A stretch of DNA of 64,000 nucleotides, from the NCBI RefSeq assembly GCF_002813135.1, contig NZ_PHTY01000001.1, forward strand, positions 1,855,501-1,919,500. Direction: 5' to 3'. The DNA comes from Ulvibacter sp. MAR_2010_11. Lineage in GTDB: Bacteria > Bacteroidota > Bacteroidia > Flavobacteriales > Flavobacteriaceae. Under the pieces are notes generated by a model that saw nothing but the letters and a program-made list of their open reading frames with translations, did not search any database and was not told the origin of the DNA. The position numbers and the translations under genes are program-made. How positions within the stretch are numbered: position 1 is the first letter of the stretch; each line of letters opens with the position of its first letter. Shown piece after piece: positions 11,111 to 20,064 of the stretch.

Positions 11111-11162
11111 GGCGGTACTTATCACGCTGGCCTTCGACTCCCGGAGGGGTAACCTAGGGTGC

Positions 11163-11465
11163 TCCCTGGTGGCTTCAGTACTGCAAATACAACTGCCAAT
11201 TTTTAAAAAATTGGTGTATAAAAGCAACAAAACCCAATCAAGTAAACCTGTTGGGTTTTTTATGTTTTCATCCACAACGCAGTTGTGAGTGATCGTGGAG
11301 CCGGAAAGATTACCTTTGGTGATCCCTAGTGGCTTCAGTACTGCAAATACAACTGCCAATTTTTAAAAAATTGGTGTATAAAAACAACAAAACCCAATCA
11401 AGTAAACCTGTTGGGTTTTTTATGTTTTCATCCACAACGCAGTTGTGAGTGATCGTGGAGCCGGA
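11163..11465. repeat. two tandem 160-bp-spaced units flanking the element
   Basis: The 143 bp at 11163-11305 recur at 11323-11465 with two mismatches. Each unit holds three hairpins (CCAATTTTT/AAATTGG, AACCCAA/TTGGGTT with T-run, CACAAC/GTTGTG) and ends in GTGGAGCCGGA, the same sequence as the 3' end of the tmRNA gene where the element integrated. The units have no credible ORF. They look like leftovers of earlier site-specific insertions, each supplying a 3' flank with a terminator to the gene end, but this is inference. Confidence 0.75.
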
Positions 11466-11468
11466 GGG
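11455..11468. other. attachment site, integrase-proximal end
   Basis: GTGGAGCCGGAGGG is identical to 19666-19679. The bases on either side differ between the two copies, which defines the 14-bp core. It directly overlaps the right end of the second tandem unit. Confidence 0.8.
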
Positions 11469-11619: not shown

Positions 11620-12879
11620 ATGACTTCAACCTTCTATTTAAAGCACCCAAAAAGTAAAACCGAAACCCTCATTTTGTTTTCCTGTTATTTCAAAAAGGAA
11701 GGCAAAAAGTTTGTTTATTCCACTGGTGAAAATATACGCCCATTGCATTGGGAGCAATCACATAAAAGCCCAAAACTAAGAGGTAAAAACAAGGCAGTGG
11801 AATCAAGTGTTATAATAACACAATTGAATCGCTACGAAGACTGCTTCAAGGCAATTCGAGGACGTTGTATCGAAATGCGTGAGGACTTCACATCACAGAT
11901 ACTGAAAAAGGCATTTGATGAGGTATTCAAGAAGGCTCCAACCGGAAAGAACATATTTTTTGAAGCATACGATGATTTTATGGCTGATAAAATAATGAAT
12001 CAGGAATGGACAGCTTCGACAGTAAAAAGATATACTAATATCAAGAATATCCTTATTGATTTTGAAAAGGACAGAAACTACAAGCTAACATTCAGTGCCA
12101 TCACAGGCAAGTTTTATTCAGAGTTTACGGACTATTGTATGAACTTCAAAGGACATATAAACAATACCTATTCACGAAACATTGGACTTTTAAAAACTTT
12201 TATGCATTGGTCATTGAAAAATGGATTCACCTATAATGAAGACTTCAAAGAGTTCAAGAAAAAGGAAAGGGTAATTACTAATCAAATAGCCCTGAAGAAG
12301 AATGATATTGAAGCAATAATGCAACTACAGTTTGAATCGAGTCGACTGGAACACATCAGAGATGTTTTTGTATTTGCTTGTGTCACTGGAATGAGGTTTG
12401 GAGAACTCAAGTTAATAACGAGGAATAGCATAATAGAAAATACACTTCACTTAAAGGAAGAAAAGGGTTCCGAGAAAGAACAACGGACTATTCCCATCAA
12501 CGATATAGCGATGTATCTACTTCGTAAGTATGATTTCTCACTTCCAATTATATCTTTACAGAAACATAATAAATATATCAAAGAGGTTTTCAAGGCAGCC
12601 GGTTATGTTCAAAATGTTGAGAAGGCTTCTACAAGAGGAAAAGAAGTGATAAGAGAAACTATGCCTTTCTATGAGCGCACTTCGAGTCATACTGCCCGCA
12701 GAACTTTTATCACTATGATGAAAAGAGAAGGAAAAAGCGACAAATTGATAATGAAGATTACAGGTCAAAAAGACATTAAGACACTAAATCAATACTATCA
12801 GGTCGAAGATGAAGAAAAGAAAGAAGCTGTAGACGAGGTCTTTAACATCGGCATTCCTTTGATTAGAAAGATAGATTAG
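11620..12879 (+). CDS. tyrosine recombinase / integrase
   Basis: This 419-aa protein has the Bacteroidetes phage-integrase layout: an N-terminal arm-binding region, a SAM-like core-binding domain (about 105-215), and a catalytic domain. Arg259 in TGMRFGEL, His357 and Arg360 in HTARR, and the nucleophile Tyr (392 or 393) in LNQYYQV are present. The position normally held by His or Trp (TGH...) is Gln383 (TGQKDIKT), a mild deviation. It begins 13 bp after the arm sites and should catalyse insertion at ssrA. Confidence 0.93.
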   Translation: MTSTFYLKHPKSKTETLILFSCYFKKEGKKFVYSTGENIRPLHWEQSHKSPKLRGKNKAVESSVIITQLNRYEDCFKAIRGRCIEMREDFTSQILKKAFDEVFKKAPTGKNIFFEAYDDFMADKIMNQEWTASTVKRYTNIKNILIDFEKDRNYKLTFSAITGKFYSEFTDYCMNFKGHINNTYSRNIGLLKTFMHWSLKNGFTYNEDFKEFKKKERVITNQIALKKNDIEAIMQLQFESSRLEHIRDVFVFACVTGMRFGELKLITRNSIIENTLHLKEEKGSEKEQRTIPINDIAMYLLRKYDFSLPIISLQKHNKYIKEVFKAAGYVQNVEKASTRGKEVIRETMPFYERTSSHTARRTFITMMKREGKSDKLIMKITGQKDIKTLNQYYQVEDEEKKEAVDEVFNIGIPLIRKID

Positions 12880-13049: not shown

Positions 13050-13238
13050 ATGCAAAACTTAGTAACAGCAAAAGAAGCTGCCACAATTTTGAAATGCACA
13101 CGAACCAATGTAGAAAGACTACAACTTACCAAAAAACTAATCCCTGCTTCTACCCCGTTTTGTAAGTATTACTTCAATCGAGAAGATGTTTTAAATCTTA
13201 AAGCCCTTCAAGAAGCTAAACGTACTACAAATGTTTAG
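13050..13238 (+). CDS. small HTH protein, excisionase-like (62 aa)
   Basis: The protein resembles MerR-type helix-turn-helix proteins of the excisionase group: LVTAKEAATILKCTRTNVERL forms the helix-turn-helix and YYFNREDVLNLK the wing. Such proteins bend att DNA to direct excision, or act as small regulators. It overlaps the next HTH gene by 8 bp. It could be the element's Xis, but the neighbouring HTH is an equal candidate. Confidence 0.75.
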   Translation: MQNLVTAKEAATILKCTRTNVERLQLTKKLIPASTPFCKYYFNREDVLNLKALQEAKRTTNV

Positions 13239-13530
13239 TGATACAGGAAATTCAGTTTTGATTCAAGGAATTACTTCTGAAGAACTATTGCAGTCAATTG
13301 GACAAATGATTGATGTAAAGTTGTCTGAATTAAAAAAGCATAGCGAAACACCAAAATGTTTTTCAATACAGGAACTGGCGAAAGCAAGCCCGGTTTGTGA
13401 ACAAACTATCAGAAACTGGATAATTTCAGGACGCTTAAAAGCCAAGAAGATAGGCAGACGCATTTTTATTGAAGAAGAAGACTTTCAAAACTCACTTTCC
13501 GATGTCAAATCATTGAAATACAAAAGATAG
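13231..13530 (+). CDS. HTH_17-type DNA-binding protein (99 aa)
   Basis: An N-terminal helical segment (TSEELLQSIGQMIDVKLSEL) is followed by a classic helix-turn-helix with wing: CFSIQELAKASPVCEQTIRN, WIISGRLKAKKIGRRIFIEEEDF. This form is common in Bacteroidetes mobile elements next to integrase and replication genes. It is translationally overlapped with the upstream HTH gene. Role as excisionase or replication regulator is inferred. Confidence 0.78.
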   Translation: MFSDTGNSVLIQGITSEELLQSIGQMIDVKLSELKKHSETPKCFSIQELAKASPVCEQTIRNWIISGRLKAKKIGRRIFIEEEDFQNSLSDVKSLKYKR

Positions 13531-13534
13531 TTGT

Positions 13535-14230
13535 ATGAATGGATATGAACTTTCAAGGTCTTGGTTCGACTTCTGTTTCGAGAACCCTGAAAAGATAAAA
13601 CCAAACCACACAGCTGTTTTCTTCTTTGCCGTTGAACTCTCTAATAGATTGGGATGGAAGAAAAAATTCGGGTTCCCGTCTGCAATGGTAATGGAAGCCG
13701 CAGGTATTAAATCATACAACACATACATCAGAACATTAAATGAAATTGTTGAATGGGGATTTGTTAGAATGATTGAAAGAAGTAAAAATCAATATTCAGC
13801 CAATATCATTGCCCTATCAAAAAATGACAAAGGAAGTGACAAAGCACTTGACAAAGCAATCATAACGCACGAGGCAAAGCAAGATGAAAGCAATGATAGT
13901 ATAGATAAACAAATAACTAATAACAATAAACCAAAAACAAAAGAGAGGGTTAAAAACATTCGTTTTTCCACACCTACACAAGTAGAAGTATATGAATTTA
14001 TGATTAATAAAAAGATTCAGCCAAGCTTGGCAAAAATTGAATCTGAAAAATTCGTGAATTATTATGAATCGAATGGTTGGATGGTTGGTAAAAACAAAAT
14101 GGAAAAATGGAATTCTGCTGCTTCAAATTGGCTAATAAAAATGAACAACCATTTTGGAAATACCAAGAATAGAAAGTCAACCATAGGCAATAGTGAAGCA
14201 ATCAGGAATAAAATGAAAAAATATGACTAA
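13535..14230 (+). CDS. phage replication-like protein (231 aa)
   Basis: The N-terminal half looks like a winged-helix replication-initiator domain (AVFFFAVELSNRLGWKKKFG, IKSYNTYIRTLNEIVEWGFV). A Lys/Asn/Asp-rich linker follows, and a short C-terminal motif (FVNYYESNGWMVGKNKMEKW then NWLIKM) matches a motif seen in phage DnaD- or DnaT-like replisome organisers. It would let the element replicate after excision. The call rests on general pattern, not on a catalytic motif. It overlaps the next gene by 8 bp. Confidence 0.6.
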   Translation: MNGYELSRSWFDFCFENPEKIKPNHTAVFFFAVELSNRLGWKKKFGFPSAMVMEAAGIKSYNTYIRTLNEIVEWGFVRMIERSKNQYSANIIALSKNDKGSDKALDKAIITHEAKQDESNDSIDKQITNNNKPKTKERVKNIRFSTPTQVEVYEFMINKKIQPSLAKIESEKFVNYYESNGWMVGKNKMEKWNSAASNWLIKMNNHFGNTKNRKSTIGNSEAIRNKMKKYD

Positions 14231-15832: not shown

Positions 15833-17284
15833 CTATTGCTTAAATATTTTTCTTAACGCTAGTACGAAGAACGAAAGAAAAATACTGCTTAAAATGAATT
15901 GAACATTTTTGAGTAAAAGCCAATAATCTGGAAAAGGCTCATCTTCTTTAATTTCTAGGTATGGAAGCGAACCTTCAACACCTCTTTCCATTGCGTTGAT
16001 TATGTCAAAATCGATGAAGAAATATGCGATTGAGCAACCCAAAAACAAAACCGCCAAACTCAACATTGGCTTCCGAATGTCTTGTGTATAACCGCCAAAG
16101 AAGCCATAAAACCAATAGATAAACCATTGAAACAACTTCCGTTCTTTCCAAAGTCCAATTTTCCTCATTTCCATTTCACTTATATATGCCATTCCTGAAA
16201 GTTCCCAGTTTTTATGATTATCAAAATTCTTTTTTAGCTGTCGATACAATTCTTCTAGGCTCTCAATCTGTGAAATATTAGTTTCTTGGTTTTTAGGTTC
16301 ATCCTTTAAAATCAACCTATCTGTCTTTTTCCATTGACAAGATGAGAATTTTACATCTACAATATCAGAGTCTGTGAATTTTATATTCCTACAATCACAT
16401 TGTCTGAAAACAGTAGTCACAGGGAATATAATATCTTGAAATATGAAAAGTCCATCTTCACCAGTCTTAATTCCTTCAAGTATATTATGCTTTGCTCGAA
16501 AGTAAACCCCTTGAAATAAGCAATTTTTGAAGTTCTCATCACTTATTCTAATTTTGTCCTCGAAAGTTAATGCAGCGAAAACACTTCGTTTCATATAAGT
16601 ATTTTCAAAAAAAGTAGAGGTCGAGGTGAACCCCTTTCCACTTAAATTGTAATTTTCTTCATAAAAGCATTTGGCAAACGTAGCATCTCCAATGAAAATA
16701 TTTGAACTGAAATCAGTCGTTCCTTTATGAGTATTGGCAAAATAATCAAACTTGTTATGAAAAGTACATTCAGAATAGTTTGTTTTTTGCACTACAACAG
16801 AAACCATTGACGAGAATTCAGCCAAAAAGCCACAATTATTAAAGCTTAGATTACCCATAATTTTGACAGCGGATAACCTGAATTCATTTTCAAATATACA
16901 GCCATCAAAAATGAGGTCTTGTAGATAATGTATGTCGTGAACTTTTAAGTGTTGAGCTGGTAAGAAATTGCCTAAAAAGAATGCATTTCCAAGAAAACGA
17001 CAGTTCTTAAAATTAACCTTTTCTTTTATTGCCAATCCATTAGCCCCAAATATCCTTTCATAATGACTATCACCTTGAAGCAACTTGTTTTCTTCACTTC
17101 GAGAAAAGGTTGGAAAAACAAATCCATTAAAGTTAAAATCGTTATTATTAATTTTATGAATCAAAATCATATCCCAAAAATGTTTGACTATATTCTGATT
17201 CCAAATTCTGACTCCATCGTCCGTTTCAGAATACCAATCTGATTTGTCAGATTTGAAAAAGGCGTCTTGTTCTTTGGGTGTCAT
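15833..17284 (-). CDS. pentapeptide-repeat membrane protein (483 aa)
   Basis: Roughly residues 60-315 contain degenerate pentapeptide repeats (VNFKNCRFLG, LIFDGCIFEN, LSFNNCGFLA, ENFKNCLFQG, VKFSSCQW), which fold as a right-handed square helix. A charged linker follows, then two membrane helices near the C-terminus (about 405-425 and 460-478) with a loop between. The gene overlaps the XRE repressor upstream by 4 bp, so the two form an operon. A repeat sensor joined to a membrane anchor under repressor control suggests a cargo effector, for example exclusion, abortive infection or toxin, but nothing proves it. Confidence 0.75.
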   Translation of the reverse strand: MTPKEQDAFFKSDKSDWYSETDDGVRIWNQNIVKHFWDMILIHKINNNDFNFNGFVFPTFSRSEENKLLQGDSHYERIFGANGLAIKEKVNFKNCRFLGNAFFLGNFLPAQHLKVHDIHYLQDLIFDGCIFENEFRLSAVKIMGNLSFNNCGFLAEFSSMVSVVVQKTNYSECTFHNKFDYFANTHKGTTDFSSNIFIGDATFAKCFYEENYNLSGKGFTSTSTFFENTYMKRSVFAALTFEDKIRISDENFKNCLFQGVYFRAKHNILEGIKTGEDGLFIFQDIIFPVTTVFRQCDCRNIKFTDSDIVDVKFSSCQWKKTDRLILKDEPKNQETNISQIESLEELYRQLKKNFDNHKNWELSGMAYISEMEMRKIGLWKERKLFQWFIYWFYGFFGGYTQDIRKPMLSLAVLFLGCSIAYFFIDFDIINAMERGVEGSLPYLEIKEDEPFPDYWLLLKNVQFILSSIFLSFFVLALRKIFKQ

Positions 17285-17583
17285 TTAGTTGGTGAAATAA
17301 TGTTAATTATTCTTTTTAAATCATCAAGGGATTTCACTCTATGTACTTCATTATTAATTTCAATAAATCCATTTAGTGGGGTGAAATCTTTTGTGGGAAA
17401 AAATAGTTCTCTCACATCCACGTCTAACACATCTGATATTTTCAGAAGTAGTTCAGGCTTTGGAAAGCTGTTTCCTTGTACAATATTCGAGATACTTGCA
17501 GGTGTGACATCAACCTTTTCGGCTAAATCCTTGCCAGTTATCCCTTTGCTTTTTAAGATGTCCTTCAATCGTAAAATCTCCAT
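17281..17583 (-). CDS. XRE-family repressor (100 aa)
   Basis: The N-terminal 65 residues form a Cro/CI-type helix-turn-helix: LKDILKSKGITGKDLAEKVD, VTPASISNIVQGNSFPKP, LLLKISDVLDVDVRELFF. A short C-terminal piece (EVHRVKSLDDLKRIINII) may mediate dimerisation. It is transcribed away from a 56-aa ORF across a 155-bp region with repeated TATAGTT boxes, and is coupled to the pentapeptide membrane gene. The arrangement is that of a phage-like switch or an autoregulated effector operon. Confidence 0.88.
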   Translation of the reverse strand: MEILRLKDILKSKGITGKDLAEKVDVTPASISNIVQGNSFPKPELLLKISDVLDVDVRELFFPTKDFTPLNGFIEINNEVHRVKSLDDLKRIINIISPTK

Positions 17584-17738: not shown

Positions 17739-17909
17739 ATGAAAATACAAACAATAACAACGGGACAATTAGAATTAGGAGCATTTTACAATATCCTGAT
17801 GGAAGAAACTGAAGGTTGTAAAATGTATGAAGCAATCAATATAGCTTTGTCAGCACAATTAGCATTTCAGGAAATGGGTAGTGATTTACCGGACTTTCCC
17901 TTAAATTAA
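17739..17909 (+). CDS. small acidic protein divergent from the repressor (56 aa)
   Basis: An uninterrupted frame from ATG to TAA reads MKIQTITTGQLELGAFYNIL and continues to DLPDFPLN. It is acidic, with one predicted helix pair and no membrane segment. A perfect TAnnTTTG box lies 44 bp upstream. Its position opposite the XRE repressor is where phages carry Cro or anti-repressor proteins, and where small antitoxins are found. I do not recognise the sequence. Confidence 0.55.
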   Translation: MKIQTITTGQLELGAFYNILMEETEGCKMYEAINIALSAQLAFQEMGSDLPDFPLN

Positions 17910-18088: not shown

Positions 18089-19090
18089 ATGGCGGATTTT
18101 TTAGATGTTAATTTTCATGCTTTTGAGTTAATTTTTCAACCATACAAAGAGCAAACTGGAAAAATGGGAAGCTTTGGAATATTCAAGTCTTGTGTAAAAA
18201 AAATAAATGACACAAGAACAGAAAATAGACGATATATAATCATTGACCGTCACGAGAATAGGGATAAAGCCGAATCAAGAAGGTTATTTGTGTCGAGAGC
18301 GACATATTCACATTCAGATAGGATGTATAAATGTAGAATAAATTTATTGAGAGATAAGGTTCCTGCGTTTTTGGATAGAGAAAAAATGACTATTTCTTCG
18401 GATATTGACTTAAAGGATAAAGAGTTGGTTGAAACTACCAACTTTTATGTTGATTTAGAAAAACATAATAACCCTACAGTCATCTGCGAATACAATAATC
18501 TTGGACCTAAAATTTCAGACATTGAATATTATTTTAGGACACTTTCATCGAGAAAATTTCTTCATATTTCTAAAGCCTGTAAAGCGCAAGTACATATGGA
18601 AAAGTCTGTTGAACAAGTTATAAATTCAATGGAAAACGTATTCAAATTTCGTTTTAAAGCTCGACCGGAAAGCCTACCTGCTCTTTTTAGAAATACTCAG
18701 GATTCATTTATTTCTAATATGCAAGCACTGGCAAACACTGTGGACCCAAAGTCGGTGAAAGTTGACTTGTCATTTCGAGAAACCGGAGGAAAAAAATTAA
18801 TTACTGAAAAGAATTACAAGATGCTAAGTACATCAAAAAAGATTCTACAAGCAGTTATTAATGACACTAAAGTTATGGAAGATATAGAAGATTTTTATCT
18901 TGAATATGAGGATTCAGAAGGTAATGACAATGATTTTAGCTTAGTAAGAGGAAAAGTAACTTTATATGTAAAGTGTCCATATAAAAAAGGAAAAAAAGGG
19001 CAGTTAGATACCGAGAAATTATTTGATTTAGCAAATGAACAATATATGCTGTATAAGGCTGAAAAGATGAACGTTAATGACAAAGACTAA
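18089..19090 (+). CDS. unknown cytoplasmic protein of a two-gene cargo module (333 aa)
   Basis: I do not recognise a family. The protein has no signal peptide or membrane helix, is rich in charged residues, and seems alpha/beta: an N-terminal strand region (VNFHAFELIFQPY), a central helical part (KSVEQVINSMENVFKFRFKA), and a C-terminal strand pair (LVRGKVTLYVKCPYKKGKKG) ahead of a final helix. Its end overlaps the next gene, a four-helix membrane protein, by 14 bp. Cytosolic-plus-membrane pairs at the distal end of integrated islands are often anti-phage systems (Kiwa has this logic), but no sequence link to one is visible to me. Confidence 0.7.
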   Translation: MADFLDVNFHAFELIFQPYKEQTGKMGSFGIFKSCVKKINDTRTENRRYIIIDRHENRDKAESRRLFVSRATYSHSDRMYKCRINLLRDKVPAFLDREKMTISSDIDLKDKELVETTNFYVDLEKHNNPTVICEYNNLGPKISDIEYYFRTLSSRKFLHISKACKAQVHMEKSVEQVINSMENVFKFRFKARPESLPALFRNTQDSFISNMQALANTVDPKSVKVDLSFRETGGKKLITEKNYKMLSTSKKILQAVINDTKVMEDIEDFYLEYEDSEGNDNDFSLVRGKVTLYVKCPYKKGKKGQLDTEKLFDLANEQYMLYKAEKMNVNDKD

Positions 19091-19595
19091 GAGAAGCCTA
19101 TTAGACCGTTATTATAAGAAACCACTTGTCTATGATGTTGTTATGGTCTCTATTATTGTTTGGGTAATTTATTATTTAAATGAAAATGATTTTATAAAAC
19201 TTGATTTTAATTGTGAATCAAACGATATAGCGGGAATCGGCATCACTGTTTCAGGTTTTATTCTTACAATTCTTACTATATTACTTACGTTAAAATCCAC
19301 AATAATTAAATCTAAAAAGCAAAAAAAAGAGACTAATTCTTTTAAAATATTCTTAGCATCAAATCTATATGGTAAAGCAATATCTATATTGAGAAATGGG
19401 GTCTTGACTTTATTAATAGTGTCATTTTTTACTTTGGGTTTAAGTATATTTACTAATAGCTTATATTGTAAATTTGGTTTGTATGCGAACATAATATGTC
19501 AATTATTTACCATTACTGTCTTTATTCGCTCCTTTTATATCCTTAATCTAATATTCAAGATGCAAAATAAAGATATTGATAATAATAAATTTTAA
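19077..19595 (+). CDS. four-helix membrane protein of the cargo module (172 aa)
   Basis: Four hydrophobic segments are visible at about residues 20-36, 51-72, 104-125 and 134-160, with basic stretches (KSKKQKKE) between the second and third. There is no signal peptide. The 14-bp overlap with the 333-aa gene implies co-translation and a shared job. The size and topology resemble membrane partners of some phage-defence systems; the sequence itself is not one I know. Confidence 0.72.
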   Translation: MTKTKRSLLDRYYKKPLVYDVVMVSIIVWVIYYLNENDFIKLDFNCESNDIAGIGITVSGFILTILTILLTLKSTIIKSKKQKKETNSFKIFLASNLYGKAISILRNGVLTLLIVSFFTLGLSIFTNSLYCKFGLYANIICQLFTITVFIRSFYILNLIFKMQNKDIDNNKF

Positions 19596-19665: not shown

Positions 19666-19679
19666 GTGGAGCCGGAGGG
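19666..19679. other. attachment site at the tmRNA 3' end
   Basis: GTGGAGCCGGAGGG, identical to 11455-11468, encodes on the minus strand the 3' acceptor strand and part of the T stem of the tmRNA. The gene stays intact because the element restores the same bases. Confidence 0.8.
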
Positions 19680-20064
19680 AGTCGAACCCTCGTCCAAACA
19701 AGCAATGATACTACTTTCTACATGTTTAGTTTTCATTTAGATTTTCGTGGGCTTGCCGGTCGAAAACTACCAACGCACCCCTTAGCTTCAATTTGGGTTT
19801 CGCAAGTGCATCAAAGCCCTGCACAAGCTAGGTTTACTTTTACGAAGTCACTAAATCAAAAACCGTAAACCAAGGTGTTTGAGTGACTTCCTGCTTTCCC
19901 ACCTTGTGGGACGAGGCATTATCCTACTGTAATTCGGATTATGCAGCTAGGGCGTAGTTATTCTCGCCGTTTAAAAAGTGTGAAATATGAGATTTACGAG
20001 CTGTATCCCAGCGCTCGACATGCTTACAATACCATTAGACCCGCTGTCAAAACCAGTCGGCCCC
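19667..20064 (-). ncRNA. ssrA: transfer-messenger RNA (tmRNA)
   Basis: The 5' end GGGGCCGACTGGTTTTGACA pairs through its first seven bases with the 3' end CGGCTCC, and the T arm (GGGTTCGACTCCC) is present. The tag frame is GGC GAG AAT AAC TAC GCC CTA GCT GCA TAA (19939-19968), giving the degradation tag GENNYALAA. CCA is not encoded. A GATCTTTG box (20073-20080; 7 of 8 to TAnnTTTG) lies just upstream. tmRNA rescues stalled ribosomes and marks the products for proteolysis. The 3' end is the integration site of the element to its left. Confidence 0.95.

Follow-up and report, generated by a model that had tools for sequence, protein, structure and literature searches.

A two-gene cargo at the end of a flavobacterial tmRNA island resembles the RexAB phage-exclusion systems

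Two overlapping genes that close an integrated island in Ulvibacter sp. MAR_2010_11 probably encode a diverged, RexAB-like two-component phage-exclusion (abortive) system carried as accessory cargo of that island. The genes, here called gene A and gene B, lie in a stretch of 64,000 nt (contig NZ_PHTY01000001.1, positions 1,855,501 to 1,919,500, forward strand) that we refer to as the window. The Rex pair of phage lambda consists of a soluble sensor and a four-helix membrane protein, stops the growth of other phages, and was among the first abortive-infection systems described. The initial annotation had read the two genes as an undescribed system for phage defense or exclusion. The defense reading is supported by RexA homology and fold, by strict pairing at 14 loci and by defense neighbors in some of them, but “undescribed” was too strong, as the pair is related, though distantly, to RexAB-type systems. 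Because the Pfam cut-offs for RexA and RexB are not reached, we file the pair as RexAB-like, outside those Pfam families.

The initial annotation had placed two genes with a 14-bp overlap at 18089-19595, at the distal end of an island and next to its right att site. Our open reading frames agreed with this exactly, and the att cores and an empty site in a sister genome bore out the position. The features on which the analysis draws are as follows.

11455..11468, left att core GTGGAGCCGGAGGG, 14 bp
11620..12879, + strand, tyrosine integrase of the island (Pfam Phage_integrase 1.9e-12; PHROG integrase 5e-33)
13231..13530, + strand, excisionase / HTH_17 protein of the island
13535..14230, + strand, probable replication-initiation (O-like) protein of the island (PHROG 18020, E 1.7e-4)
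17281..17583, - strand, CI/Cro-type HTH repressor gene (Pfam HTH_3, E 3.9e-12; PHROG transcriptional repressor)
17739..17909, + strand, 56-aa ORF, similar to the C terminus of the 171-aa ORF that occupies this position in locus L005 (5534-6049)
18089..19090, + strand, gene A ORF, 333 aa, complete
19077..19090, + strand, overlap of the gene A and gene B reading frames, 14 bp
19077..19595, + strand, gene B ORF, 172 aa, complete
Gene B residues 16-34, 54-72, 108-126 and 138-156, predicted transmembrane (TM) helices (hydropathy)
19666..19679, right att core GTGGAGCCGGAGGG, 14 bp, within the 3' end of the tmRNA gene
19666-20064, tmRNA gene, whose 3' end holds the right att core

The island measures ∼8.2 kb and is integrated in the tmRNA gene, with gene A and gene B as the last genes before the right att. 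In the sister genome (G101, locus L043), the left flank (up to 11468) joins the tmRNA gene (from 19666) with a 14-bp overlap; since the flanks are contiguous with exactly the att overlap, we conclude that this is the empty site without the island. The overlap between the two reading frames is consistent with translational coupling. The HTH repressor gene is divergent to the pair, and the 56-aa ORF between them is, judging by its sequence, a probable relic of the 171-aa ORF located ahead of gene A in L005.

A scan of genome contigs yielded three close relatives in other flavobacteria (L003-L005), in which the amino-acid identity was 72-92 % for gene A and 52-71 % for gene B. Relative to L005, the closest of these, dN/dS was 0.08 for gene A and 0.12 for gene B, indicating purifying selection on both. 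Conservation at 52-92 % together with low dN/dS led us to conclude that both genes are real and not chance ORFs. Comparison of 18089-19595 with L005 6223-7720 also revealed a DNA identity of about 91 % in gene A and about 73 % in gene B, with a sharp drop at the junction between them and dS values of 0.39 and 1.53, respectively. This break in identity and dS suggests replacement of one of the two genes through recombination, perhaps a swap of effector alleles.

Gene A was followed directly downstream by a four-TM gene B in the window and in 13 of 13 relatives examined, and a gene A relative lacking its partner, which would have spoken against a two-gene system, was not seen. In the window and the 12 clear relatives, both genes were on the same strand with a gap of -17 to +5 nt; the thirteenth relative (L023), found by the DUF6731 model described below, has a four-TM ORF downstream, and the start codon of its gene B is unsure. 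A single-sequence family search returned a 27 % match (L002) in which the next gene again encodes a small four-TM protein, and alignment-based searches returned L008, L014 and L015 as well as the viral contigs L011, L027, L028 and L031. Starting from L002, tblastn identified gp18 of the archaeal Geoglobus ahangari pleomorphic virus 1 (GahPV1, L017; 2e-15), whose gp19 is a four-TM protein overlapping gp18 by 17 bp. With the window sequences as queries, tblastn found no match to gene A in plasmids and phages and none to gene B in phages. Independent searches with gene A and with gene B arrived at the same viral contig, and pairwise distances within the two families were correlated (Mantel r 0.92, a value reached in 0 of 20000 permutations). 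The pair is present in about 1 % or fewer of the sampled Bacteroidota genomes. Two weak genome matches were rejected as chance: L009, which lies inside a histidine-kinase ORF, and L016, which lies over a RimP-like coding sequence.

The initial annotation knew of no family for the genes. This held for the two window proteins, which gave nothing above the curated cut-offs in Pfam or NCBIfam and no match worth noting in PHROGs or PADLOC. It did not hold for the wider family, because relatives of gene A match Pfam DUF6731 (PF20505). These are GahPV1 gp18 (2.7e-6, 27.6 bits versus a cut-off of 27), L027 (4.6e-7) and L023 (2e-17), with L028 slightly below the cut-off. Window gene A and its near clade do not reach the DUF6731 model; these four relatives, like window gene A, are each followed by a four-TM gene. 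In the literature searched, we found no paper that mentions DUF6731. Pfam RexA (PF15969) was matched neither by gene A nor by the scanned relatives. Direct profile searches with the window proteins also returned CrgA (0.003), RexB (0.42) and DUF4508 (0.11), which we set aside as sub-threshold noise.

When a 14-member gene A profile was compared with four RexA sequences using hhalign, the two aligned with an E of 9.7e-6 and a score of 45.5, colinear over RexA 83-270, and with the GP-x-x-SD motifs of both families in register. The gene A family shares the motif E-[YF]-N-x-x-G-P-x-[IL]-S-D-x-x-Y-Y (alignments A3/A5/A12), which in the window protein occupies residues 134-148 (18488..18532, + strand), with G139-P140 and S143-D144 in its loop, and which was aligned with FGPTTSDLTDF of lambda RexA. 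As controls, the best of 200 column shuffles scored 24.5 against the 45.5 of the real profile, and reversed profiles failed at 10-12. The match held when any one member was left out (E 2e-6 to 2e-4) and was lost (E 0.17) once all four DUF6731-type members were left out, which means that the sequence kinship of the window clade to RexA runs through this bridge and that the structural match is the direct support. Identity between gene A and lambda RexA is about 11-14 %. With a single RexA sequence, the smaller profile A5 gave no significant match (hhalign E 0.41), and neither phmmer with gene A nor hmmsearch with A12 reached RexA among the PDB sequences. We retained the RexA assignment only once the deeper profile, the controls and the structure agreed, and we regard the support for gene A as a distant RexA homologue as good but not overwhelming.

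An AlphaFold model of gene A built from eight sequences reached a pLDDT of 83 and a pTM of 0.82 (pLDDT 33 in a single-sequence run). The model consists of a split globular domain (about residues 1-169 plus 300-333) into which a dimerization-type domain (about 172-298) is inserted; this inserted domain contains four strands and four helices, with the order of the elements as in the published layout of RexA. In a Foldseek search against 350,542 PDB chains, lambda RexA (8twq) was the top match (E 4.2e-6, probability 1.00), the second match was also RexA (1.7e-5), and the next, unrelated match had an E of 0.018. VIA-align matched 156 residues of the model, from 7 to 327, to RexA with a Z of 10.5 and ranked CENP-N/Chl4, Iml3 and RdgC next at Z 5-7. 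The proteins of this latter group function in recombination control and at kinetochores, and we know of no four-TM membrane partner for any of them. Iml3, Chl4 and RdgC are the same structural relatives that Adams et al. reported for RexA (PMC11077077). Foldseek whole-chain TM-scores of the model against RexA were low, at 0.22-0.34, which a different arrangement of the domains might explain, RexA having been crystallized in a closed state. On the predicted model, then, the gene A product has the RexA fold.

One feature of RexA is not conserved. R219 and K221 are DNA-contact residues of RexA, and the double mutant does not bind DNA (PMC11077077). Their columns correspond to E272 and E274 in window gene A, the E272 column being K or R in several relatives, and several gene A relatives are acidic overall. 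DNA binding by the gene A protein is therefore uncertain, and because of the E272/E274 alignment the sensing step may differ from that of lambda.

For gene B, hydropathy showed four hydrophobic segments, in agreement with the four-helix membrane protein first annotated. Four peaks were present in 13 of 14 gene B family proteins, spaced as in lambda RexB; the protein from L008 had three, its first helix falling under the threshold used. Within TM2, G60-F61 is invariant across the family. The gene B family profile was marginal against the RexB profile (hhalign E 0.01, score 21 versus a shuffle maximum of 18.7), and window gene B matched Pfam RexB (PF15968) colinearly at 11.5 bits and E 0.42, below the 27-bit curated cut-off. 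The RexB of Pseudomonas putida is likewise without an HHpred homologue, according to its authors (PMC12894663). By analogy with these systems, we propose that gene B is an inner-membrane protein and the effector of the pair.

The closest comparison is with lambda RexAB itself (PF15969 RexA, PF15968 RexB; PDB 8twq), with which the window pair shares the gene order (soluble protein first, four-TM protein directly after it), the split two-domain fold and G-P-x-x-S-D signature of RexA, the best PDB match of the gene A model, and the TM spacing of RexB. It differs from lambda in that cI is cotranscribed with rexAB there, whereas the HTH repressor gene is divergent from the pair here, and in its carrier, which is a lambdoid prophage for rexAB and an island for the present cargo. 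Only five RexAB-like systems have been described, according to a 2026 paper (PMC12894663). Besides lambda, RexABpp (PP_5643/PP_5644, P. putida), CarolAnn 44/43, Sbash 30/31 and Butters 30/31 each combine a RexA-like protein with a four-TM membrane protein and have been shown to act in phage defense (PMC12894663, PMC6426606, PMC6426596). RexABpp and the actinophage systems have other hosts and carriers, and we liken them to the window pair by description, not by sequence; CarolAnn and Sbash are linked via DUF4747, not DUF6731. In another genome of the same phylum (L033 1243-2683), a multi-TM ORF comes after a DUF4747 gene (E 4e-20), the order known from CarolAnn/Sbash. Kinship of this DUF4747 protein to DUF6731 gave an hhalign E of 0.1, and a bridge between the two was not shown.

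If the pair works like lambda RexAB, CarolAnn/Sbash and P. putida RexABpp, the gene A protein would be a soluble, probably dimeric protein of RexA/RdgC fold that detects a signal of infection, either phage DNA intermediates or a phage protein, and then activates the four-helix gene B protein in the inner membrane. Activated gene B would depolarize or permeabilize that membrane, and the infected cell would stop growing before phage are made, which would protect against infection. The main rival inverts these roles, with the soluble RexA-like protein as the antiviral effector and the four-helix protein holding it inactive at the membrane until infection. The discussion section of one report names the soluble partner as the effector for Butters gp30/gp31 (PMC12894663), whose two-gene architecture is identical to that of the window pair, and the strict pairing and tight coupling would equally fit a toxin with its keeper. 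The membrane protein is nevertheless the effector in lambda RexAB and in three of the four other described RexAB-type systems, and we consider the inverted arrangement unlikely.

The initial annotation had likened the pair to Kiwa (KwaA/KwaB), which also joins a membrane protein to a cytosolic partner. On this layout one could envisage superinfection exclusion at entry, or a Kiwa-like mechanism in which gene B senses attachment and gene A, as a DNA-binding partner, acts on phage DNA. The searches did not support the analogy: for the window pair, PADLOC returned no Kiwa match and Pfam no DUF4868 match (E up to 1), DUF4868 was also missing from the Pfam matches of the relatives scanned, and the fold match is RexA. 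Such a mechanism is very improbable, and we continue with the RexAB-like reading.

The pair was carried by islands and conjugative elements of Bacteroidota, by contigs of tailed phages, by a pleolipovirus of archaea and by a type I restriction locus that includes PrrC. In this last locus (L006, 7879-16215), hsdR, hsdS, a gene for a PrrC-type nuclease (PADLOC PrrC 7.8e-94) and hsdM lie directly upstream of the pair on one strand, and the whole looks like one type I restriction-modification operon, a natural defense stack of restriction, anticodon nuclease and Rex-like functions. L003 carries a relaxase and L004 a T4SS coupling protein, marking both as mobile, conjugative-type elements, and in each the pair is followed by a 441-aa AAA/STAND-like ATPase (L003 9545-10870, L004 9541-10866; 78 % identical) that is missing from the window; the L003 ATPase matches the PADLOC candidate PDC-S59 at 1e-30. 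L019 has integrases and a PADLOC candidate PDC-S02 nuclease nearby. The initial annotation had asked whether homologous pairs sit near defense genes; a defense gene or a PADLOC candidate neighbors the pair at L006, L003 and L019. In L027, L028 and L031, the genes around the pair are those of tailed phages and encode tail proteins, amidase and lysozyme. GahPV1 gp18/gp19 (L017 5001-6465), annotated as hypothetical proteins, are found beside HTH, AAA and RelE-type genes.

These settings also bear on whether gene A might be mainly a regulator of the integration or excision state of the island, with gene B modulating it and phage exclusion secondary. RexA stabilizes the lytic state of lambda and biases its CI-Cro switch (PMC11077077). 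L005, which sits at the tmRNA of another genus, resembles the window in that the pair adjoins a divergent CI-like HTH gene. The pair also occurs, however, in the restriction-modification operon of L006, in unrelated element types, and as a stand-alone chromosomal pair in L018, where inspection found neither mobile nor defense genes; moreover, the DNA-contact residues of RexA are not kept. We therefore give this regulatory role little credence and favor RexAB-like phage exclusion.

More broadly, we see an even chance that DUF6731 and the Bacteroidota relatives together form a large, unrecognized RexAB-like defense branch, with members in bacteria, in tailed phages and in an archaeal pleolipovirus, which would act as a stand-alone module inside restriction operons (hsd-prrC) and sense infection without the known DNA contacts of RexA. 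Both the gene pair, so far without a name, and DUF6731, a family of unknown function, are now open to testing for phage defense, and the link of DUF6731 to RexA, with a membrane partner, adds natural variants from Bacteroidota, from tailed phages and from a virus of archaea. These variants allow the features that are kept, namely the G-P-x-x-S-D loop of gene A and the TM2 G-F of gene B, to be compared with the RexA DNA contacts, which are not, and this comparison bears on how Rex senses infection. The nested hsd-prrC-rexAB-like locus in L006 provides an apparent, naturally stacked defense operon.

Other observations concern the island and its borders. A 483-aa protein (15833-17284, - strand) adjoins the HTH gene, matches pentapeptide repeats weakly, is hydrophobic in its C-terminal part, and is a possible second cargo gene of the island. 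Just to the left of the island (11141-11460), a 160-bp sequence is tandemly duplicated, each copy ending in a sequence like the att core, and G101 contains a single copy (L043 1948-2073); the duplication may have been left behind by a past integration or excision event.
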